22,320 nt of DNA from a virus. The notes beneath the pieces were generated by a model. It did no database searches. It was given only the letters and a program-made list of their open reading frames with translations, and had not been told where the DNA came from. The DNA is taken from the IMG/VR virus record IMGVR_UViG_3300048446_000034, positions 1 through 22,320 of that record; one strand, written 5' to 3'. Both the position numbers and the translations under genes were made by a program. The first letter of the stretch is position 1; each line of letters opens with the position of its first letter. Below are positions 4,225-21,256 of the stretch, piece by piece.

Positions 4225-4478
4225 GTTCACCCGAAGGCTGGGAAGGATTAACCCAAGCTGTGAGTGAAGCGCCAAGAGCCGACGATATAGACATCCTATA
4301 TGGTAAGGTTTTCAAGAGTTCTGAGGGGCAGAAGGTTCTAAGCCATTTGCGCAGCGTTACGATTGAGCAACCGACTTGGCACCCTGGAGAAGATGCGAGC
4401 TTTGGTTATGCTAGGACAGGAATGGCAGAGATTGTTCGTATGATTGAAAAAAGAATAGGAAGGTCAAACAATGGCTGA
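4221..4478 (+). CDS. Bbp19-like small phage protein
   Basis: 85 residues, translationally coupled to the portal by a 4-base ATGA overlap and overlapping the scaffold gene by 8 bases. The pattern DILYGKVFKSSEGQKVLSHL, then an aromatic TWHPGEDASFGYARTGM and a final helix VRMIEKRIGR fits the Bbp19 type of small phage proteins (VF-x-T/S-x-x-G-x-x-VL-x-x-L, then an F-x-x-G/TG-x-x-x-x-V-x-x-I helix), which lie between portal and scaffold or capsid genes. No enzymatic motif. The role in head assembly is inferred from position. Confidence 0.65.
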   Translation: MSSPEGWEGLTQAVSEAPRADDIDILYGKVFKSSEGQKVLSHLRSVTIEQPTWHPGEDASFGYARTGMAEIVRMIEKRIGRSNNG

Positions 4479-5241
4479 AGAAGCGGCAGCAGTAGAAGCG
4501 GATGCAGATGCACCGATGATTAACGTATCGGAACCGGAGGCTCCCCAAGAGGATGCACCCATTCCGGTTCACGAACAGCCACAGGAGGAGATGCAGTCAT
4601 CTGATGATGACGATGGGCCACTAGAGCGCCCTGAGTATTACCCTGCAAAGTTTTGGGATGAGGATGGCCCTGATGTTGAAAAGCTGGCAAAAAGTTACGC
4701 GGAGCTGGAAAAGAAGTTTAAGTCGGGCAAGCATAAAGCACCGGAGCAGTATGATATATCTTCATTGGCGGATCAGGGTTTGGACGCTGACGATCCGACT
4801 GTCTCCGTATATCAGGACTGGGCTAAGGAAAACGGGATTAGCCAGGATGCTTTTGAGGATCTTGCTGGTCGCGTCTTATCTATGGCGAAAGATGAGCAAG
4901 AGAGTGTCCAGTACGATCAACGCGCTGAAATGGAGAAGCTAGGCTCTAACGCCTCTGAGAAGATCCAGATGACTGAGCGCATCTTGCAGAAGGCACCTCT
5001 CAACAACTCTGAGCGTGAAGCGATAGCATATTCTCTGAACAATGCCGACTCGATCAATGCGTTCTTAAAGTATCATCAGGCCATTACGAATGAGAACATT
5101 CCGATCAAGCCTGTGGTCGAGCAGCAAGACTTTACTAGGGAAGATCTTGAGTCGGCAATCGCAGATCCTCGCTGGAAAACTGATGCCGCTTGGCGCACAA
5201 AAATGGAACGTCAATGGTTCCAATCTCAGCAAAGAGCCTAA
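4471..5241 (+). CDS. Capsid assembly scaffolding protein
   Basis: 256 residues between portal and major capsid protein, the standard position for a T7 gp9-like scaffold. The first 50 residues are acidic, Pro/Glu/Asp-rich and probably disordered. Then comes PAKFWDEDGPDVEKLAKSYA-ELEKKF, the typical scaffold element, followed by long helices and a C-terminal block ending RWKTDAAWRTKMERQWFQ, likely the capsid-binding helix-turn-helix. Scaffolds fill the prohead and leave before or during packaging. The start ATG at 4471 overlaps the previous gene by 8 bases, with AGGAAGG at 4457-4463 as ribosome site. No protease gene is seen here, so scaffold removal is probably by exit and not digestion. Confidence 0.87.
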   Translation: MAEEAAAVEADADAPMINVSEPEAPQEDAPIPVHEQPQEEMQSSDDDDGPLERPEYYPAKFWDEDGPDVEKLAKSYAELEKKFKSGKHKAPEQYDISSLADQGLDADDPTVSVYQDWAKENGISQDAFEDLAGRVLSMAKDEQESVQYDQRAEMEKLGSNASEKIQMTERILQKAPLNNSEREAIAYSLNNADSINAFLKYHQAITNENIPIKPVVEQQDFTREDLESAIADPRWKTDAAWRTKMERQWFQSQQRA

Positions 5242-5245
5242 ACTC

Positions 5246-5274
5246 TTGCAATAAGTATCGCTTGCGTGTATTTT
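5246..5274 (+). promoter_or_regulatory. Weak sigma70-like promoter candidate before capsid gene
   Basis: TTGCAA at 5246-5251 and TATTTT at 5269-5274 are separated by exactly 17 bases, each matching four of six consensus positions. It lies in the only large gap of the head module, where extra capsid transcription would be useful. It overlaps the left arm of the long stem at 5258-5351, so a transcript starting near 5281 would lack that arm; the two readings compete. Evidence is limited to spacing and partial matches. Confidence 0.25.
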
Positions 5275-5351
5275 GGCCTTAACGGCTAACCGCGCACCGG
5301 CCCGTTAGATGTAGTATTCTACTGGCTGGCGCGGCCATAACGCGCAAGCGA
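5258..5351 (+). promoter_or_regulatory. Candidate multi-branched structured RNA in capsid leader
   Basis: A 94-nt element between scaffold and capsid genes. Closing stem: 5258-5269 pairs with 5340-5351, 12 bp with one G-U and no mismatch (9-bp core TCGCTTGCG / CGCAAGCGA). After a small asymmetric loop, TGGCC 5274-5278 pairs with GGCCA 5333-5337. Inside are two hairpins: TAACGG 5280-5285 with CCGTTA 5302-5307, extended by CCG/CGG at 5290-5292/5298-5300, and GTAG 5311-5314 with CTAC 5319-5322 around a TATT loop. Two smaller hairpins follow (CCGA/TCGG 5356-5366; AACG/CGTT 5369-5380) before the capsid ribosome site. There is no T-tract, so it is not a simple terminator. It could be an RNase III-type processing or stability element, or a translational control element. 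Confidence 0.6.
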
Positions 5352-5395
5352 CCGCCCGAACCTCGGATAACGGAAGCGTTTTGTTGAAACCCACT

Positions 5396-5402
5396 AGGAG
5401 GT
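5396..5402 (+). promoter_or_regulatory. Strong ribosome binding site of the capsid gene
   Basis: AGGAGGT, a perfect 7-base match to the anti-Shine-Dalgarno, 7 bases before the capsid ATG at 5410. It is among the strongest in the window and lies just downstream of the structured leader, consistent with the high output needed for the major capsid protein. It fixes the capsid start at 5410. Confidence 0.85.
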
Positions 5403-5409
5403 ATCTGCA

Positions 5410-6249
5410 ATGGCGCAGAACGTCACTACGGCGTTTGTTGATCTTTTCGACTCTGAGGTCAAACAAGCGTATCAAGCCGAATCGCTGCTTCGCGGCACGA
5501 TGCGGACACGCAGCGGAGTAGCTGGAAACACTGTAAAGTTCCCCACAATCGGGAAAGGTGTTGCTACACTTCGCGTTCCACAAACTGATGTCACACCACT
5601 GAACGTGACCTATGGTCAGGTAACTGCAACGATGGAAGATTACATCGCGGCAGAATATTCAGACATCTTCCAGCAATCGCACATTAACTTTGATGAGCGC
5701 TCTGAGCTGGTTCAAGTCGTATCTAAATCTATCGCTCGTCGTATGGATCAGATTATGATTGATGCTTTGAATGCTGCTACTGGCACATCAGCTGTTGCTA
5801 CAACAGTTGGCCCAGGTGGTAACACTGACATGAACATCGAGAAGCTACGCGCAACAGCAAAAGCTCTTAACGAGAAGAACGTACCATCTGAAGGTCGTTA
5901 CTTGTTGATGCACGCAACACAGCTCGATTCATTGCTCGGTGAACAAGAGATCACAAGCCAAGACTTTGCTGCGGTAAAAGCTCTTGTGCAAGGTGAGATC
6001 AACACGTTCATGGGCTTTAACATTTTGACAATGGGTGATCGTGACGAAGGTGGTATTCCTAAGCCTTCAACTCGTACCTGTTTTGCTTGGCACAAAGATT
6101 CAATGGGCTACGCTGAGTCAATGGCGCAAAAAACTGAAGTAAACTATGTCCCTGAAAAGACATCGTTCTTGGTTAGCTCCATGTTCTCTGCTGGTTCCGT
6201 TTCAATCGACGGCGAAGGCATTGTCAAAATCGCTTGTACTGAAGCATAA
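5410..6249 (+). CDS. Major capsid protein
   Basis: 279 residues with a perfect Shine-Dalgarno, directly after the scaffold. The sequence shows the expected HK97-fold features of podovirus capsids lacking a delta domain: an N-terminal arm, then GNTVKFPTIGKGVATLRVPQ (E-loop/strand region, about residues 39-60), the long spine helix around DERSELVQVVSKSIARRMDQ with IMIDALNAAT (about 96-124), the A-domain helix NIEKLRATAKALNEKNVP, then the RYLLMHATQLDSLL strand-helix and a C-terminal strand pair. A small gene coupled downstream (6262) may be an accessory head protein. The identification rests on context and overall pattern. The length is shorter than T7 gp10A, and I see no slippery site producing a long minor form. 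Confidence 0.88.
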   Translation: MAQNVTTAFVDLFDSEVKQAYQAESLLRGTMRTRSGVAGNTVKFPTIGKGVATLRVPQTDVTPLNVTYGQVTATMEDYIAAEYSDIFQQSHINFDERSELVQVVSKSIARRMDQIMIDALNAATGTSAVATTVGPGGNTDMNIEKLRATAKALNEKNVPSEGRYLLMHATQLDSLLGEQEITSQDFAAVKALVQGEINTFMGFNILTMGDRDEGGIPKPSTRTCFAWHKDSMGYAESMAQKTEVNYVPEKTSFLVSSMFSAGSVSIDGEGIVKIACTEA

Positions 6250-6514: not shown

Positions 6515-6532
6515 GGGGCGGTTCGCCGCCCC
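6515..6532 (+). terminator. GC-rich hairpin with TTCG loop after the head genes
   Basis: GGGGCGG (6515-6521), loop TTCG (6522-6525), CCGCCCC (6526-6532): a perfect 7-bp G/C stem. It is followed by TTCCCC, not a true T-run, so it is a weak intrinsic terminator or a 3'-end stabiliser that partly separates capsid mRNA from tail mRNA. It sits 8 bases after the TAATAA stop and before the next ribosome site AGGAGG (6545-6550). Confidence 0.6.
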
Positions 6533-9866: not shown

Positions 9867-12416
9867 ATGGCTATTCTTCCCAGATATCAGCGTATCGGTT
9901 TACAAACCCGCCAGCCTCAACAGTTGGACTTTGCCGCTACGCGGGAACAAGCCAGGCTTGGTCAGACCATTTCTCAGCAAGTCGATCGTATGGCTGACTT
10001 TGCCTTCAAAGAAGCATCTGCGGCTGCTGCGGTAAGAGGACAAGAGCGCGTTAGAGAAGAGGGCGCTCGTCCTACTCTTGCGGCAATAGAAGAAGCCGGT
10101 GGCCCTTCTACGATTGCAGAACGTGCAGCATATGCTTTGGGCAGTCGCGTGGCTGTTGCTGAAATACAGAACGAAGCTGAGATCGAGATCATGCGCGTCT
10201 TGGCAGAGGGTGAAAGAAACGAAACGCCCTTTACTTCTATCCAGGCGCAGCTTGCAGATATTAAGGATGGTTACTCTGCGTCACTAGATACAATAGACCC
10301 AGAAGCAGCATTGATGTTGCAGACCAGGTTGTCCTCTGCATCCGTTAAAGCAGAAGAAAAATATTCTAATTATTATGTAAAGTTACAAGCATCAAAGGCT
10401 AAGGCCAAAGTAAACACCGCTGCTGATGTTCAGCTTGAGCGCATTCTCGGCACTGCAATATTACCTGGCTATAATGCCGAAAAGATAAGAAGTGATATTG
10501 ATGTTAGTCTTGATTTACTGGCGGGTTTGGGTGCTGATGATGCAACGCTTATTGCCTTTAAAGAGCAAGCGTTTAATGCTGCTATAAAAGAAAACACAAT
10601 TTACAGATTCAATACAGCGGATCTTGATACTCAGGCTGAGATGCTGACTGGCATGGAAACAAAGCCTGTTGCTGGTATGTCTTTAGCGCAAACTCAAACT
10701 CTGCGTAAGCAACTGCGAGCTGACTACAATTCTAAACTGCGCGTTACTCAAGGCGAGGCTGCGGCTGTTGTCGCTGATGTCAATGAGCAAAGCCGCATAT
10801 TAGCATTGGGCGGTATGCCTTCGCAGAAAGAAGTATTGACGCTGAGAGAGCGAGCTGACGCTGCCGGTGATTATGGTGCGGGTGCAAGGGATGCTGTCGG
10901 GCGTTTGCAGTTCAACATGGATAAGGCTGCTGCATTTCGTAAGATGACGCCAGAAGATCTAGCTGCTGAGGTGCAAGCCCTTAGCCAAGGTCTTGAAGGT
11001 ATGGGTGAGGCTGGAATTGATACGCTCATAGAAGCTGAAACATTAAAGGTTGCGCAGGCGTATCTAACTGCTGCTGAGGCTGGTGTAGAAAAAGCTCAAA
11101 CAGCTCGCAAAGCAGAGTTCAAGCCTATTGTTGATAACCTGGCGAATGAAATTGCAGACTTCCAAAAGATAGTTGATTCCGGTCGCGCTGTAGAAAGTGG
11201 GGATATTGCAAAGTTAATTGAAGCTGTCAGCAATGTTCCAGAAGATCTAAGGCAAGATCTTACTGAGGATGTTATGGCGTTAAACATAACAAGTGCTACT
11301 GCTGAGGCTGTAGGCAATATGACGCCAGCCGAAGCTGCTGGATACATTAGATCCCTCGGAGCGGGCATTGAGGGCATTGGCGATGCTGGATTAGATACTC
11401 CGGTCGAGATAGAAACATACGATCTTGCGAAGAAAATGCTTTCTGGCATGGAGGCAGAACTAAAGAAAGATCCTCTGTCATACGCTATGCGCGTTGGCCT
11501 TAACGATGCAAATGGCAATGCTATTGAAATCACACCGATTGATTTTACAAACCCAGATGCAACAATAGAAACTATGAAGAAACGGATTAATGATGCGACT
11601 ATTGTTTCTTCTAAGTATTCAACGCCGGTAACATATTTTACGCCGCAAGAAAGATCTATGCTGGCTGAAGTTATGGATGGTGCCGATCGCTCTCAGCGTA
11701 TGTTTATATTAGGTGGTATTGTTGATGGCGCTGGCCAAGCCGCTCCTGATATGATGGCTGAAATATCTAAGACTGCTCCAGAGTTTGCCGGTATTGGTGC
11801 GCTGGTTGTAAACGAGAGAATGGATGCGGCTAACTTTGCATTGCGTGGAATGGATAAGCTAAAAGGTGGATATAAACCGCCTGAGTTTACCGCTTCAAAT
11901 ACAGATGTATTATTTAATGCAAAAACCACTGAGGCTTTACGTTACTTGCCAAATACAATTGGAATTACCAGAGAGGTCGCTACAGCAATCTATGCTGACA
12001 TGGCTAACACTAACAATTTACAAAACTTCGATGAAGATCTTTGGGAAGATGCTATAAATCTTGCCCTTGGAGCTGATGGAGCTGGCAATGGTGGTATTCA
12101 AGAAGTCCGTGGCGCAAATACACTTGTACCGCCAAACCTAAGTTCTGATGATATTGAAGCAGCATTAAAGGCAATGACACCGGAGAGCATAGCTGCTGCT
12201 TCTGGCGGTCAAGTTTTAAGCGCAGAATATGCAGAAGAGATTTCTGGCCGTGGAATGTTTAGTTTAGACAGTAATTACAAACCAATATCATATGGTGGAA
12301 ATAATTTTGTCCTAGTATATGGAGATCCTAGCACTGGCGAGCCTATATATGTTTTTGATGAAACCGGTAGTGCATTGACTTTTGATATGCAGAAGTTAGT
12401 TGAGGCCACTCAATGA
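9867..12416 (+). CDS. Large internal virion protein (T7 gp15-like ejection protein)
   Basis: 849 residues, mostly helical and Ala/Glu/Gln-rich with probable coiled coils (about residues 20-80, 130-200, 260-420). The start MAILPRYQRIGLQTRQPQQL resembles the common N-terminus of podovirus internal proteins of this size. Position between a gp14-like gene and the polyvalent protein suggests the gp15-type component of the ejectosome that spans the periplasm. A 52-residue helical motif is duplicated (residues 359-410 and 484-535, 21 of 52 identical). I see no lytic transglycosylase motif. It is coupled to the next gene by an ATGA overlap at 12413-12416. Function is assigned from size, composition and order more than from motifs. 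Confidence 0.72.
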   Translation: MAILPRYQRIGLQTRQPQQLDFAATREQARLGQTISQQVDRMADFAFKEASAAAAVRGQERVREEGARPTLAAIEEAGGPSTIAERAAYALGSRVAVAEIQNEAEIEIMRVLAEGERNETPFTSIQAQLADIKDGYSASLDTIDPEAALMLQTRLSSASVKAEEKYSNYYVKLQASKAKAKVNTAADVQLERILGTAILPGYNAEKIRSDIDVSLDLLAGLGADDATLIAFKEQAFNAAIKENTIYRFNTADLDTQAEMLTGMETKPVAGMSLAQTQTLRKQLRADYNSKLRVTQGEAAAVVADVNEQSRILALGGMPSQKEVLTLRERADAAGDYGAGARDAVGRLQFNMDKAAAFRKMTPEDLAAEVQALSQGLEGMGEAGIDTLIEAETLKVAQAYLTAAEAGVEKAQTARKAEFKPIVDNLANEIADFQKIVDSGRAVESGDIAKLIEAVSNVPEDLRQDLTEDVMALNITSATAEAVGNMTPAEAAGYIRSLGAGIEGIGDAGLDTPVEIETYDLAKKMLSGMEAELKKDPLSYAMRVGLNDANGNAIEITPIDFTNPDATIETMKKRINDATIVSSKYSTPVTYFTPQERSMLAEVMDGADRSQRMFILGGIVDGAGQAAPDMMAEISKTAPEFAGIGALVVNERMDAANFALRGMDKLKGGYKPPEFTASNTDVLFNAKTTEALRYLPNTIGITREVATAIYADMANTNNLQNFDEDLWEDAINLALGADGAGNGGIQEVRGANTLVPPNLSSDDIEAALKAMTPESIAAASGGQVLSAEYAEEISGRGMFSLDSNYKPISYGGNNFVLVYGDPSTGEPIYVFDETGSALTFDMQKLVEATQ
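10941..11471 (+). repeat. Protein-level duplicated 52-residue motif in the gp15-like gene
   Basis: The copy at 10941-11096 (residues 359-410, starting KMTPEDLAAEVQALSQGLEG) and the copy at 11316-11471 (residues 484-535, starting NMTPAEAAGYIRSLGAGIEG) align without gaps with 21 of 52 identical residues. Shared core: MTP, G-x-EG-x-G-x-AG-x-DT, E-x-ET. The spacing is 125 residues. The DNA of the two copies has diverged, so this is an old internal duplication and not a recent DNA repeat. Confidence 0.75.
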
Positions 12417-15400
12417 ACTTTGACCAACCCGATCCGCTAGACATTCTTCCCCAGCAGGGCTTGCAAGCACCACCTGGTACGCTTACGGAAAATCTTACGA
12501 CTGCGTTTGATGTTGCTCGCTTCAACGGTGGGTCTGGTGCAAACAGCAAAGCATTTACTATGCTGGAAGTCTGGGGGCCGATCGTAGACCTAGCCAATCA
12601 AAACGGCGGCGACTTTGAAAACCCTGGCATATACCTCAGCAGCAGCTTGTTTGATACAAGTGCGCCTCGCGTTTATGAGCGGCAAACCCAAGAGCTTTAT
12701 TCTTGGATGGCAGAGAACAGACAATCATTGCCGCCAGAGCTACAAGATATAACGCCTGATGTAATCGATCAGCGTACTAAAGACTTTGTGCAGTCTAAGC
12801 AGAATGAATTAGCAGAGCTTGCGAGAACAAATCCTGACCTGGCTAGTGCATCTGCTCGGTTTATTGGCTCTATGGGTTCAGCGTTTGGTGATCCGGTAAC
12901 GCAAGCCACAATGCCGTTTGGCGGTTGGTCTAAATCATTCTGGAAGAACGTAATGCAGAGCGCTGCTATAAATGCTGGCGTTGGTGCAATTACTGAGGTT
13001 GATGTTGCCAAGTGGTATAATGAGCTTGATCTGGAATATAGCTATCAAGACTTTCTGGCAAATGTAGCTATCCAAGGCGCATTCGGCGCAGCATTGCCGG
13101 TTGCTGGTCGCGGCATACGAATGACTGCGGAGCAAGCAAAGAAAGGCTGGGAAGTATTATCTGGCAAAGGCCGCAAGCCTATTAGCCCAGAGGATCAAGC
13201 TTTGGTTGATGTCCTCGAAGCACAAGAGGAAGTGGTTGCCACTAATCCGCTAGAAACGCCGCAAGATCCTAATGTGGCAGAGTTTGAGCATCAGAGCCGT
13301 TTAACTGCCGCACAAGCGGCGATAGAGAACAATCAAGCGCCTAAGATAACGCCAGAGCCAAACGCGCCTATAAAGCCCGCCGTGGCAGCAGAGGCAGCAG
13401 ATAATCTTGACGGTGTTCTATACACCTTAGATCCAGAGCAAATTGCTGTTGATGCCAAGACGTTTCAGTTCAAGGCTGGCGGCGATGAGTTTGGCGTAAC
13501 AGAAAGACTGCAAGGTATAACTACCTGGGATAAATACAAAGCTGGTGTTGTAACGGTGTATGAATATGCCGATGGTCGTTTGGCTATTGCTGATGGCCAC
13601 CAGCGTCTAGGTCTAGCAAAGCGGATTCGGTCGCAAGATCCTTCTCAGGATGTAAAGGTTATCGGGTATAAGCTGCGCGAGGTTGACGGGATCAGCCCAG
13701 AAGAAGCGCGTGTTATTGCTGCAATGAAGAATATTGCAGAAGGCACTGGTACATCTATTGATGCGGCTAAGGTATTGCGGGTTGAGCCCGATAGATTGTC
13801 AGAACTGCCGCCACGTTCTGAGCTAGTACGCCAGGCTAGAGATATGATGGCTCTAAGCGATGAGGCATTCGGTGCTATCGTTAATGAAGTGATACCGGCA
13901 AACTATGGCGCTATCGTTGGCAGATTGATTGATGATCCTAAGCTGCAAGATGCGGCTATCCAGGTCTTAGCCAAGTCTGAGCCTAGCAATGCCTTCCAAG
14001 CAGAATCAATCGTGCGCCAGGTGCGTGAGGCTGGAGCTGAAGAGGTAGAGCAAATATCTCTATTCGGTGAAGAGCTGGTAACTGAAAGCTATTATGTAGA
14101 ACGTGCAAAGGTCTTAGATCGAGCATATAAAGAACTGCGCCGTGATAAGGCAGCATTTGAAACATTGGTTCGTAACTCGGAACGCCTGGAAGCAGAAGGC
14201 AACGTCTTAGTTAAGGAAGCAAACGAAAGAAAGGCGAATACAGATGGCCAAACGATCGCGCTCCTCCAAACGCTTGCAAACAGAAAAGGGCCGCTCTCCG
14301 ATGCCCTCAACCAAGCAGCAAGAACAGCCAGAGACACAAACAGCTATGTCGAAGCAACCAGAGGTTTCCTCGATGCTGTCAGAGGATCAATTGAATCGGG
14401 CGACTTCGACCGCATATCTTCTGGCGACATTGGACGCGCTGTCGATGGTACGCCGCAGATCGCTCGATCTGAAATTGAAAAAGAACCAGCCCTTGAGGGC
14501 TTCGACGAGCCAACAGGGGTAGCAGCAGAACGCCAGGCCGATCAGCTAATTGATGATATGTTTGGCGCTGACGAGGTAGATGCTGACTCTATTGCTGGCC
14601 TCAAACGGTTGCTTGATGAAAGCCCGACCAGAGATCAGATAGACAATCATCCATCTGTGATTAAAGCGCTAGATGAAATGGAAGCTCGCGCAGAAACGTC
14701 TGGCATAGAAGGTTACAACACAGAAGCCTGGCATAACTCTCGCGTTTATAAAATAGATGACCAGGATGTTACCTCAACAGCAGAGGCAATGGTTCGGTTT
14801 GAGCTTGATGCAGAGCAGTTAGCATTTAAAGAACTAGGCATAGATCCGCAGCCTGTTTTCAGAAACAAAGAACTGACTATAGTTTTAGGCCCACCCGCTG
14901 CCGGTAAAAGCACAATCGCTAATGAATTAGCCGTTGCAAACAGATCTGCTATTCTTGACAGCGATGAGATTAAGAAGGCGCTGCCAGAGTATGAGGGCGG
15001 TATTGGTGCATCAGCGGTGCATGAAGAGAGTTCTGACCTGGCAAAGATCTTACAATCCTTGATGATCGAGCAAGGAACTAATATCGTTCTGCCGAAGGTG
15101 GGGCATTCTGCCTCTAGTATTCGTAAAGTAATATCACTATATAAAGATAAGGGGTACAAGGTTCGTCTTGTAAATATGGATGTTACCCCAGAAAACGCAT
15201 ATCAACGTATGATCGGGCGTTTCGTATCTTCTGGCAGAATTATTCCACCGGCATATCTTGATGCTGTTGGAGCTAATCCATCTGCCACATTTAGAACATT
15301 AAGACAGGAGGGCGCAGCCGATGGCTATGCAGAAATCGACAACAATGGCGGCTTCAATGACCCCAAAGAAATCAGAGAAATCTCAGGAGACAACCCGCTA

Positions 15401-15703
15401 TCAGGATCTAGCTTCGATGTACCTTCGGGTGGACGAACAGGACCAGACGCTATCAGAGTCGCAGAGCGCGATAGTGCAACGTATTCTCTCGAAAAAACGC
15501 AGCCTACCCCAGGCGGAGGAATAGCTGACGATATAAATACATCTGACATCTTTGACGATATGGATCTTGAGGTTCCTCTTGGTGAACGCTTAGATCCTGA
15601 CACTAATGAAGTTGTGCCAACAACTATGACGCTTAAAGATGTTAAGGCTCAAATGGATCAAGAAGACGCAATGATATCCCGATTGGAGTTCTGTACAATA
15701 TGA
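12413..15703 (+). CDS. Polyvalent internal virion protein with ParB/DdrB-like and zeta-toxin-like kinase domains
   Basis: 1096 residues. Residues 1-140: helical start. About 149-225: Gly/Ala-rich segment with RFIGSMGSAFGDPVTQATMP and AINAGVGAITEV, a hydrophobic patch usual in ejection proteins. About 332-460: ParB/DdrB-like domain with the strand YTLDPEQIAVDAKTFQFKA and the signature DGHQRLGLA (394-402). About 500-700: helices including GPLSDALNQAARTA and FLDAVRGSI. About 820-990: zeta-toxin-like P-loop kinase with Walker A GPPAAGKS (826-833), LDSDEIKKALPEYEGG, HEESSDL and IGRFVSSGRIIPPAYLD. The end PTTMTLKDVKAQMDQEDAMI is a conserved family tail. Such multidomain proteins are known as polyvalent proteins, thought to enter the cell with phage DNA. 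The kinase target is unknown. Two ORFs are nested in the +1 frame. Confidence 0.85.
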   Translation: MNFDQPDPLDILPQQGLQAPPGTLTENLTTAFDVARFNGGSGANSKAFTMLEVWGPIVDLANQNGGDFENPGIYLSSSLFDTSAPRVYERQTQELYSWMAENRQSLPPELQDITPDVIDQRTKDFVQSKQNELAELARTNPDLASASARFIGSMGSAFGDPVTQATMPFGGWSKSFWKNVMQSAAINAGVGAITEVDVAKWYNELDLEYSYQDFLANVAIQGAFGAALPVAGRGIRMTAEQAKKGWEVLSGKGRKPISPEDQALVDVLEAQEEVVATNPLETPQDPNVAEFEHQSRLTAAQAAIENNQAPKITPEPNAPIKPAVAAEAADNLDGVLYTLDPEQIAVDAKTFQFKAGGDEFGVTERLQGITTWDKYKAGVVTVYEYADGRLAIADGHQRLGLAKRIRSQDPSQDVKVIGYKLREVDGISPEEARVIAAMKNIAEGTGTSIDAAKVLRVEPDRLSELPPRSELVRQARDMMALSDEAFGAIVNEVIPANYGAIVGRLIDDPKLQDAAIQVLAKSEPSNAFQAESIVRQVREAGAEEVEQISLFGEELVTESYYVERAKVLDRAYKELRRDKAAFETLVRNSERLEAEGNVLVKEANERKANTDGQTIALLQTLANRKGPLSDALNQAARTARDTNSYVEATRGFLDAVRGSIESGDFDRISSGDIGRAVDGTPQIARSEIEKEPALEGFDEPTGVAAERQADQLIDDMFGADEVDADSIAGLKRLLDESPTRDQIDNHPSVIKALDEMEARAETSGIEGYNTEAWHNSRVYKIDDQDVTSTAEAMVRFELDAEQLAFKELGIDPQPVFRNKELTIVLGPPAAGKSTIANELAVANRSAILDSDEIKKALPEYEGGIGASAVHEESSDLAKILQSLMIEQGTNIVLPKVGHSASSIRKVISLYKDKGYKVRLVNMDVTPENAYQRMIGRFVSSGRIIPPAYLDAVGANPSATFRTLRQEGAADGYAEIDNNGGFNDPKEIREISGDNPLSGSSFDVPSGGRTGPDAIRVAERDSATYSLEKTQPTPGGGIADDINTSDIFDDMDLEVPLGERLDPDTNEVVPTTMTLKDVKAQMDQEDAMISRLEFCTI
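14244..14522 (+). CDS. Candidate nested gene in +1 frame of the polyvalent protein gene (92 residues)
   Basis: An ATG-to-TAG ORF inside the coding sequence of the 1096-residue protein. The product is hydrophilic and basic at its start (MAKRSRSSKRLQTEKGRS), then Gln/Ser/Pro-rich, then a helical stretch DQLNRATSTAYLLATLDALS and a basic end. AAGG at 14231-14234 lies 9 bases before the ATG. Over the 95 host-frame codons read here, third positions shift to C and A (33 C against 19 T), with CTC as five of seven Leu codons and TTC as all three Phe codons; the neighbouring stretches prefer T-ending codons. That is expected if the overlapping frame is under selection, but mosaic import would also explain it. 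No family recognised. Confidence 0.3.
   Translation: MAKRSRSSKRLQTEKGRSPMPSTKQQEQPETQTAMSKQPEVSSMLSEDQLNRATSTAYLLATLDALSMVRRRSLDLKLKKNQPLRASTSQQG
15321..15524 (+). CDS. Candidate nested gene in +1 frame with strong ribosome site (67 residues)
   Basis: An ATG-to-TAG ORF inside the 3' part of the polyvalent protein gene, in the same +1 frame as the other nested ORF. AGGAGGG at 15306-15312, 8 bases before the ATG, is as good as the capsid ribosome site and has no job in the host frame, where it merely encodes Gln-Glu-Gly. The product (MAMQKSTTMAASMTPKKSEK, later LRVDEQDQTLSESQSAIVQR, ending RSLPQAEE) is hydrophilic with a plausible amphipathic helix. Host-frame codons across the stretch shift to GAC, ATC and GGA. 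No family recognised, no membrane segment. Confidence 0.4.
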   Translation: MAMQKSTTMAASMTPKKSEKSQETTRYQDLASMYLRVDEQDQTLSESQSAIVQRILSKKRSLPQAEE

Positions 15704-18208: not shown

Positions 18209-21200
18209 ATGTCCGATATCGCAATTAACCCTGTTACGCGCAGAGTTCAGTTCACAGGCAATACTGGAACCGGCCCGTATGCCTTTACATTCAATGTTTT
18301 GCAGTCAAGTGATATCGTTGTTTACAAGAACAACGTGCTGCTGACAGAAACAACCGATTACACTGTATCGATTGATGCGAATGGTACGGGCAACATCACG
18401 ATGGTTGTTGCTTTGGTGCTTACGGACATTCTGACAATCATCGGTGGCCGTGAACTATCACGCACAACTGACTTCGTGACTGCTGGTGACTTGTTGGCTT
18501 CTTCGTTGAATGAACAGCTTGACAGCAATGTCATCATGTCTCAGCAACTTGATGAGCGCTTTGGCCGTACTCTTGCCGTTCCTCCAGGCGATGAAGATGC
18601 AACTCTGAATTTGCCATTGGTAGCTGATCGCGCTGGCAAGCTAATAAGTTTTACCACAAGTGGATCTGTAACTAGCCCAGAAACAACCGCCGCTCAACTT
18701 GATGCTGCTGTTAGTTCTTTTATTAACGCTACGGGAAACAACGCCAGTTCAATTCTTTATGATCCATCTGGAACTGGAGCGGTTCAGACTACCGTTCAAT
18801 CAAAGTTAAGACAGACTGTTTCGGTTAAAGACTTTGGGGCTGTTGGTGATGGAACATCGGACGATACCACAGAAATACAAGCTGCTCTGACTGCCGCTTC
18901 TGGTACAAGTAATGTGTATTTACCTGCTGGCACTTACATAGTCAGCGCAACTATCTTTATTCCAAGCAATACTTACTTTTTTGGAGATGGTAAAAGTAGT
19001 ATTATCAAAATGATTGGGACTGAGGGCCGCAATACTACTGTGGTTATGACTGGCTTTAGAAATAACAAGCGTGAAAACATTGTTATTGAAAATATGCAGA
19101 TTGATTTCAACCGTACCCGCTGGGCTGTTACGGGTGGTAATCAGCTCACTGATGCGTTTAACGGAACTGCTGGATATAGCACCTATCAAGATAACGATGA
19201 AACAGCATTGAGCATTTGTTACTCAGAAAATGTTTTAGTAAAAAACGTCTGGGCTATTGATGGTTATAAGCACTGTATTGATGTTACGGCTCCTGCTTAT
19301 CGGACAGGAACTGACGGTGCGACTTACGACAGCCAACCGTCTAAGAATGTAACACTTCAAAATTGTTATGTCTCTGGTGGAGGTGATGATAACATTACCA
19401 CTCACCACTCAACAGACATTAACATTATTGGATGCTGGTCAGAAAACCCATCTGGTGTTCGTATTCCTCAGAACTCAAACTGCATTGAGATTGATGACGG
19501 TAGCCGAAACGTATTTGTAACTAACTGCGTAACTATTGGCGGTAATTATGGCCTTCAGATTAAAGGGCATGACTACGCACCAGCACCTTACAACGTGATT
19601 GTGAATGGGCTTAGAGCCGTAAACAATACTCAAGGTGTAGAGCTTAGGCACTCAGGCTGGTACGCAAATAAGGCAACCTTTAGTGGCGATGGAAGCACAA
19701 CGGCATTTACACTGCCAAGCGGCTATACGGTTTCTCCGGTTGTTTATGTTGGTGGTGTAAAGCAAACATCAGGATTTTCTGTTAGCGGTGTAACCTTAAC
19801 ATTCACATCGGCCCCCGCTTCTGGGACAGATAACATTGTTGTTTACAAGGCTGACGAGGGAGAAGACCCAGAAATTGTAGACGAAGAAGGCATTACAATT
19901 GCTTACACAGGTACAAGCCCAACGGCTCGTAATGTAATGCTGTCAAACATTTCGGTTATTGCACCTAAGTCTGTAGCTCATCCAACTGTAACAACTGTTG
20001 GTGGTACTGCCATTCCTAATGTTAGTAATACCGGCAATGTTTCTCAGTCAACATACAATGCCATTGCTGGTATGCGTATTCGTTCGTATGAAAATGTTAA
20101 TCTAGTAAACGTTAGTTTTAATGACAGCACTTTAGATTTGGCTGATGATTACAGTGATGCAACAGCCCTATCTACAGATGCAGTGTGTCGGGTTTACAAT
20201 GGCGCATCAAATATTCTTATTAAGAACATGTCTATTTATGGGTTTGGTTCTGGCGACTTAGAAATGGAGCGTGGTTTATACACGACAAACAGCTTAGTAG
20301 GACCAATATCTGTAGATGGCTTTGCTTCTAGTAATGGGCCAGAGCATCCAATTAGGTGCAGTGAAGCTGGAAGTTTATACGAAGGCTACATTGATAATTT
20401 TTTAATTTCTGGCAGTCAATCAGACAAGATTGCTGTGTATGTTACTTGTCCTTTTGTGCAGGTTGGGTCGGGTACTGTAACGGGTTACGGCTCGCCTTCT
20501 GGCGGTGGTATTGGATCAACAGACGTTGCACAACCCAAGGGTATGACTTTTTCAAGAACGGCCCGCAGTTCATCTGGTAATACTACCACTCCAGTTTCTG
20601 TAATGAACTTTGATTGGTATGAAAGAGCAAGTGGTCAAAACTTAGGCTTAGGTGAGGGTTTAAAGCAATCTTGGCGTACACAGTTAGATGCTGACGATTC
20701 TCCTGTTGAGGTTGGTTTTGTTGGTTTCATTAAAAATACTACCCCTGACACAGACAGGATGCATGACTTTGTTGTAGGTAATTCGGCTGATGGCGGCACG
20801 ACTGCGGCTGCTCCTGTGTTTGAGGTTGCATCTGATGGTACTGTTCGCCCATCGGCAAATGGTAGTCAGTCATTAGGTGATGCAAGCCACAGATGGAGTG
20901 AAGTCTTTGCATCTAACGGCACAATCAACACATCTGATGAACGTCAGAAGCAAGACATTGCTGACATAGATGCTGCTGAAACTAGGGTGGCTGTAGTTCT
21001 TAAAGGTAAGTTAAAGAAGTTTAAGTTTAAGGATGCTGTTGCGGCTAAGGGTGACAATGCGCGAGTGCACATCGGTGTAATAGCTCAGGAAGTAAAAGCT
21101 GCTTTTGAGGCAGAAGGCTTAGATGCTCACGACTACGCCATGTTATGCTACGATCAATGGACTACTGGATCGGAAGAAACTGGCGATTTAGAAACACATG

Positions 21201-21256
21201 ACAGTTATGGGGTTCGTTACACTGAGCTTCTAACATTTATAATTTCTGCGATGTAA
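18209..21256 (+). CDS. Tail fibre / tailspike: T7-fibre-like N-terminus, pectate-lyase-like beta-helix, S74 chaperone
   Basis: 1015 residues. Residues 1-155: T7-fibre-like virion attachment domain (RRVQFTGNTGTGPYAFTFNV, then SDIVVYKNNVLLTETTDYTV). From about 205: pectate-lyase-3 start VSVKDFGAVGDGTSDDTTEI, then a right-handed beta-helix to about 770. Within it SGGGDDNITTHH (Asp393, Asp394, His399, His400) resembles a glycosidase/lyase active site, so depolymerase activity is plausible. About residues 488-548 is an inserted domain (FSGDGSTTAFTLPSGYTV, then VVYVGGVKQ). Residues 885-1015: intramolecular chaperone of endosialidase type (S74) with TSDERQKQDI; Ser909 and Lys914 fit the self-cleavage dyad, predicting loss of a 107-residue C-terminal piece after trimerisation. 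Confidence 0.9.
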   Translation: MSDIAINPVTRRVQFTGNTGTGPYAFTFNVLQSSDIVVYKNNVLLTETTDYTVSIDANGTGNITMVVALVLTDILTIIGGRELSRTTDFVTAGDLLASSLNEQLDSNVIMSQQLDERFGRTLAVPPGDEDATLNLPLVADRAGKLISFTTSGSVTSPETTAAQLDAAVSSFINATGNNASSILYDPSGTGAVQTTVQSKLRQTVSVKDFGAVGDGTSDDTTEIQAALTAASGTSNVYLPAGTYIVSATIFIPSNTYFFGDGKSSIIKMIGTEGRNTTVVMTGFRNNKRENIVIENMQIDFNRTRWAVTGGNQLTDAFNGTAGYSTYQDNDETALSICYSENVLVKNVWAIDGYKHCIDVTAPAYRTGTDGATYDSQPSKNVTLQNCYVSGGGDDNITTHHSTDINIIGCWSENPSGVRIPQNSNCIEIDDGSRNVFVTNCVTIGGNYGLQIKGHDYAPAPYNVIVNGLRAVNNTQGVELRHSGWYANKATFSGDGSTTAFTLPSGYTVSPVVYVGGVKQTSGFSVSGVTLTFTSAPASGTDNIVVYKADEGEDPEIVDEEGITIAYTGTSPTARNVMLSNISVIAPKSVAHPTVTTVGGTAIPNVSNTGNVSQSTYNAIAGMRIRSYENVNLVNVSFNDSTLDLADDYSDATALSTDAVCRVYNGASNILIKNMSIYGFGSGDLEMERGLYTTNSLVGPISVDGFASSNGPEHPIRCSEAGSLYEGYIDNFLISGSQSDKIAVYVTCPFVQVGSGTVTGYGSPSGGGIGSTDVAQPKGMTFSRTARSSSGNTTTPVSVMNFDWYERASGQNLGLGEGLKQSWRTQLDADDSPVEVGFVGFIKNTTPDTDRMHDFVVGNSADGGTTAAAPVFEVASDGTVRPSANGSQSLGDASHRWSEVFASNGTINTSDERQKQDIADIDAAETRVAVVLKGKLKKFKFKDAVAAKGDNARVHIGVIAQEVKAAFEAEGLDAHDYAMLCYDQWTTGSEETGDLETHDSYGVRYTELLTFIISAM

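Follow-up and report, generated by a model that had tools for sequence, protein, structure and literature searches.

A covarying leader RNA, apparently of an uncatalogued family, directly in front of the major capsid gene of marine phages

The stretch of DNA analysed here, referred to as the window, is a 22,320-nt virus record from IMG/VR, and the features of the capsid locus listed below lie on its + strand. A non-coding gap of 168 nt (5242-5409) separates a scaffold-like ORF (4471-5241) from the capsid ORF (5410-6249). This gap had been noted in a preliminary description made from the letters of the window, and both it and the complementary segments named there are present. The closest cultured relative is the Methylophilales (OM43) phage MEP301; the capsid protein of the window is 61% identical to that of MEP301, and the portal protein 62%. 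A capsid search of IMG/VR returned 80 loci, in which the pre-capsid gap measures 166-178 nt wherever the upstream stop could be placed. We refer to the window's own family as family 1, to the MEP301-type relatives as family 2, and to the SI2-type relatives as family 3.

Three relatives (L482, L495, and L517) have a pre-capsid gap of 600-700 nt, with seemingly extra, possibly structured non-coding sequence located 5' of the promoter. In one clade (L007, L008, L014, and similar sequences) the Shine-Dalgarno sequence of the capsid gene is flanked by complementary arms (GCAAAAGGAGGTTTTTGC), which other clades do not have. Elsewhere in the window, positions 12413-15703 encode a late, probably virion, protein of 1096 aa whose residues 817-979 form a zeta-toxin/AAA_33-like kinase domain (Pfam PF06414, E = 3e-19). 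The tail-spike-like protein encoded at 18209-21256 combines a pectate-lyase-like domain with a Peptidase_S74 (endosialidase chaperone) domain at its C terminus.

The features of the capsid locus are listed here; R1 is a covariance model trained on family 1 only.

5246-5251, +: -35 hexamer TTGCAA, its TTG invariant in the alignment of 26 relatives
5258-5269, +: 5' arm of a 12-bp stem, between -35 and -10, with no covariation with 5340-5351
5269-5274, +: -10 hexamer TATTTT; in 57 of the 66 promoters that were scored, the hexamer ends 6 nt 5' of helix P1
5281-5379, +: conserved structured leader RNA (R1 match at 5274-5386, 106.6 bits; covariation)
5281-5285/5302-5306, +: helix P1, compensatory changes in 3 of 5 pairs (family 1)
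5286-5289 and 5301, +: internal loop between P1 and P2, CUAA opposite a single C
5290-5292/5298-5300, +: helix P2, compensatory changes in 3 of 3 pairs across families
5311-5314/5319-5322, +: hairpin PA, compensatory changes in 3 of 4 pairs in family 1 and 4 of 4 across families
5323-5325/5335-5337, +: H-type pseudoknot, UGG with CCA in the P3 loop (family 1)
5329-5333/5341-5345, +: hairpin P3, 97.0% of cells paired, compensatory changes in 4 of 5 pairs
5348-5377, +: 3' hairpin with P4 (5348-5349/5376-5377), P5 (5352-5354/5371-5373), and P6 (5356-5359/5363-5366), from the alignment fold and covariation
5355 and 5367-5370, +: internal loop within the 3' hairpin, C opposite AUAA, a mirror copy of the first loop
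5396-5401, +: Shine-Dalgarno sequence AGGAGG of the capsid gene, identified from sequence and kept across the 26-relative alignment
5410-6249, +: major capsid protein gene (PHROG 3437, E = 6e-55)
6515-6532, +: GC hairpin GGGGCGG-UUCG-CCGCCCC, which marks the 3' border of the unit formed by the capsid gene and an 81-aa gene, 23 nt before the tail gene

The preliminary description had drawn positions 5258-5351 as a multibranched RNA with a 12-bp closing stem, and had offered GCGCG/CGCGC as an alternative pairing that would allow switching. This segment does fold stably (-48.1 kcal/mol, z = -5.5 against shuffled sequences), because it contains a 12-bp inverted repeat with one G-U. However, the closing stem (5258-5269/5340-5351) does not covary among 26 relatives: it is paired in 72.4% of cells, which is also the shuffled mean (72.4%), it has no surplus of compensatory changes, and in several divergent relatives only 2-3 of its 12 pairs are left. 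The proposed second helix, TGGCC/GGCCA (5274-5278/5333-5337), is likewise not conserved in the 26-relative alignment. The three other pairings of that drawing are conserved and covary, namely the hairpins at 5280-5285/5302-5307 and 5311-5314/5319-5322 and the GCGCG/CGCGC pairing at 5329-5333/5341-5345; the last of these is the conserved helix P3 itself and not an alternative partner in a switch. The multibranched, switching architecture with its long closing stem is not the correct one. The limits of the element also had to be redrawn: it extends from 5281 to about 5379, and the earlier drawing lacked both the promoter and the hairpin at the 3' end (5348-5377). When the leader is taken without the arm of the stem (5281-5380), its z-score is -0.25, and free energy was ruled out as evidence for the structure of the true leader; in eight members z-scores between -1.75 and +0.77 revealed no clear excess of stability over shuffled sequence. 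Support for the structure thus comes from covariation and not from stability, and folding energy on its own pointed to the wrong structure here.

The 5' arm of the stem can be read differently. A predicted sigma70-type promoter, TTGCAA-N17-TATTTT, occupies positions 5246-5274 and is conserved; the arm lies between its TTG.. and TA...T hexamers and is therefore read as promoter spacer, outside the leader. A -35/-10 pair with a score of at least 7 was found in 66 of 73 distinct family-1 elements (the mean for shuffles was 19.2), and the spacer is 17 nt long in 64 of these 66. The promoter geometry is similar in the MEP301-type (43 of 48 scored) and SI2-type (15 of 15) relatives; overall, the promoter is located 6-7 nt 5' of P1. 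We infer a transcription start near 5281, where the first base of P1 coincides with the predicted +1, and use of this promoter at the capsid leader; with transcription starting at P1, the capsid mRNA would begin with the leader, and the closing stem would have its 5' arm outside the transcript, because the adjacent promoter would start the RNA downstream of it. MEP301 was reported to have no RNA polymerase gene (PMC8024684), with which a host-type promoter motif agrees.

An intrinsic terminator is found just 5' of the promoter and leader in 62 of the 115 family-2/3 loci. This agrees with a leader placed at the 5' end of its transcript, and it bears on the idea that the element is a conditional switch or an RNase III substrate, with read-through transcripts forming the 12-bp stem and promoter-initiated ones the conserved fold. 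The window's clade has the stem in full, and one pair of relatives (L167/L171) has matching changes on both arms, which leaves a read-through function restricted to one clade a slight chance but no support from covariation. Overall, however, the stem does not covary and is lost in divergent clades, and read-through RNA should be scarce in many family-2/3 relatives because of the terminator upstream; we regard this explanation as very improbable.

The conserved fold consists of six short helices and a pseudoknot in about 100 nt. RNAalifold predicted P1, P2, PA, P3, and the 3' hairpin P4-P6 from the alignment alone. For the 54 sequences of family 1, 94.3% of cells are paired (87.8% after shuffling), the covariation score is 0.231 (0.114 after shuffling, with none of 500 shuffles reaching the observed score), and 13 pairs have compensatory changes. 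Families 1 and 2 were also aligned jointly (39 distinct sequences), with the alignment fitted to the structure. Here 93.5% of pairs form, compensatory changes affect 19 of 26 pairs, and the score reaches 0.564, compared to 0.181 for shuffled alignments (0 of 500) and 0.045-0.064 for slid controls. The MEP301-type leaders aligned by themselves have compensatory changes in 13 of 18 predicted pairs. G-U exceeds A-C in the paired columns of the + strand (42 versus 13), which identifies the RNA as the + strand.

The pseudoknot comprises three pairs only and was not observed in family 2. It is UGG/CCA in nearly all of family 1 and UAG/CUA in L075 and L432, with G-U intermediates in L045 and L077. 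The asymmetric internal loop enclosed by P1/P2 recurs within P5/P6 with its order mirrored; in both, an invariant GG-NNNA faces a single C. The P1/P2 region (5281-5306) contains the invariant GG..AACC/GGCCC. Stability by itself would not call for invariant loops, and the leader shows no clear excess of it over shuffled sequence; a specific partner or tertiary fold is therefore to be expected in addition. One candidate is a leader under feedback or ligand control, in which the conserved loops would bind the capsid protein, the scaffold, or a metabolite and so alter capsid translation. A specific partner would be expected to select for unpaired bases that do not vary, as in the two identical internal loops, and for a pseudoknot; moreover, the leader never occurs away from the capsid gene. 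The alignments, in contrast, revealed no conserved pairing that hides the ribosome binding site, no terminator between leader and gene, and no switch partner, and we consider such control a possibility of rather low probability.

R1 detects the family-2 leaders at the same position, with E-values down to 4.5e-7. A joint covariance model, R2, finds exactly one copy per record in 12 of 12 phage contigs, and likewise one in the complete genome of MEP301. All family-1 matches precede the capsid gene. A family-2 DNA pattern that made no reference to the capsid gene yielded 120 matches, of which 117 stand before a capsid homologue, while a contig ends no more than 92 nt from each of the other 3. Every confirmed copy with sufficient downstream sequence precedes a capsid gene. 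A looser DNA pattern applied to viral contigs returned mostly chance matches, and all of the genuine ones were located 5' of the capsid gene. R2 had no match in the regions searched of HK022 (24000-34500), T7, SI2, the Vibrio phages, and HTVC010P. Copies in bacterial genomes were considered and rejected: a pattern search there gave 120 matches that looked like chance, and none of the 93 loci searched with the covariance model scored above 22 bits (E = 0.004, the loci having been preselected by the pattern).

With a covarying fold fixed directly 5' of one gene, the element is, by its predicted structure and position, a structured cis-acting mRNA leader. The same placement is difficult to reconcile with a processed RNA acting in trans (a packaging RNA or small RNA) or with a self-cleaving ribozyme. 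The compact, pseudoknotted fold with its invariant core and the single copy per genome would suit either, but the linkage to the capsid start codon is strictly in cis, there is no terminator between leader and gene, and no Rfam ribozyme or sRNA was matched; both appear quite improbable.

The search of Rfam 15 that the preliminary description had proposed returned 0 matches in the window at the gathering threshold and, at relaxed E-values, only matches that were at chance level, unrelated, or misplaced. The earlier claim of a structured non-coding leader 5' of the capsid gene, unlike any known ribozyme or riboswitch, is thus borne out, with covariation in its support. The leader was not described in the literature searched, which covered few subscription journals. 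The about-100-nt RNA therefore appears to be a previously uncatalogued family, although structured phage mRNA leaders are known as a kind. The manA and wcaG candidate RNAs are also structured RNAs of marine phages; however, they are tied to metabolic genes of T4-like cyanophages (PMC2864571), and the capsid leader has no Rfam match.

A third, different leader (GCAGACCC..GGCACCC..GGCCC..CTCGRTC) was observed 5' of the capsid gene, behind a similar promoter geometry, in L518-L568 and in L083, which is Dunaliella viridis virus SI2. It has a structure of its own with a covarying closing stem and is not matched by R2; we kept the SI2-type leaders separate from families 1 and 2. HTVC010P and the Vibrio phages have relatives of the capsid protein without any such leader. 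Since the SI2-type leader differs and these phages have none, the leader is not essential to this type of capsid.

On the opposite side of the capsid unit, a strong hairpin is located about 20 nt 5' of the next gene in 25 of 29, 31 of 40, and 11 of 12 distinct relatives of the three families. Its sequence varies among relatives; mostly it lacks a U-tract, and occasionally it is a true terminator. As judged from sequence, the capsid unit is laid out like the T7 gene 10 unit, with another class of promoter: both consist of a scaffold gene, a promoter (phi10 in T7), a short leader, the capsid gene, and, 18-23 nt ahead of the tail gene, a 3' terminator (Tphi) or hairpin. The T7 promoter is recognized by T7 RNA polymerase, whereas the one predicted for the marine leader is of the host sigma70 type. 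The marine leader is about twice as long as the T7 gene 10 leader, to which it is unrelated, and it is pseudoknotted, conserved in sequence, and far more elaborate; and, unlike Tphi, the marine 3' hairpin mostly has no U-tract.

The put RNA of phage HK022, which suppresses termination by binding the beta' zinc-binding domain of RNA polymerase, is likewise a structured RNA of a phage and also follows closely after a host-type promoter. If the leader were a processive antiterminator of this kind, the nascent RNA would bind the host RNA polymerase and cause read-through of a long late operon. Its position at the head of a long block of late genes and immediately after a host-type promoter motif, comparable to HK022 putL (PMC9378689), would fit, as would the absence of an RNA polymerase of its own from MEP301 (PMC8024684). 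However, the 12-20 kb from the leader onward in ten relatives contain almost no intrinsic terminators, and three of the five that were found sit upstream of the promoter, which weakens a put-like role. The folds differ as well: put has about 70 nt and two stem-loops and belongs to early promoters (PMC9378689), whereas the marine leader has about 100 nt, six helices with a pseudoknot (P1/P2, PA, P3 with the pseudoknot, and P4-P6), and precedes a capsid gene. Together with the absence of an R2 match from the HK022 region searched, this makes antitermination an unlikely function.

We favor the reading that the leader acts in cis and forms the extreme 5' terminus of an mRNA dedicated to the capsid. 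Helices at the 5' terminus slow mRNA decay. Because P1 would begin at +1, no single-stranded 5' end would be offered to 5'-end-dependent decay, and the compact, sequence-specific core may keep the leader folded or be bound by a factor. A leader folded or bound in this way would prolong the life of the capsid mRNA and permit heavy translation, while the 3' hairpin would protect the opposite end of the unit. The alignments and searches make it nearly certain that a new structured RNA family, present once per phage genome, is located directly between a host-type promoter motif and the major capsid gene. The proposed mechanism, in which the leader raises the stability or translation of the capsid mRNA, is more tentative and in our estimate falls slightly short of even odds. 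To the statement as a whole, a new RNA family that is also a cis-acting 5' leader of capsid mRNA acting on its stability or translation, we assign a probability of about 0.5.

Each phage virion requires capsid protein in hundreds of copies, and to our knowledge capsid supply in phages without their own RNA polymerase has been little studied. The strongly covarying RNA family described here occurs in hundreds of viral contigs, most of them marine, as well as in a single cultured phage, MEP301, whose host is an OM43 methylotroph, and the leader probably helps to make the large amount of capsid protein needed for each virus. More speculatively, and with only a low probability, the sequence-specific, pseudoknotted 5'-end RNA may be a nuclease-resistant cap, a counterpart in bacterial viruses of exonuclease-resistant viral RNAs, or a new element that binds RNA polymerase or the ribosome. 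With a covariance model that detects it cleanly, the leader is a defined, testable RNA element that would, in either role, raise capsid output in a widespread group of marine phages.
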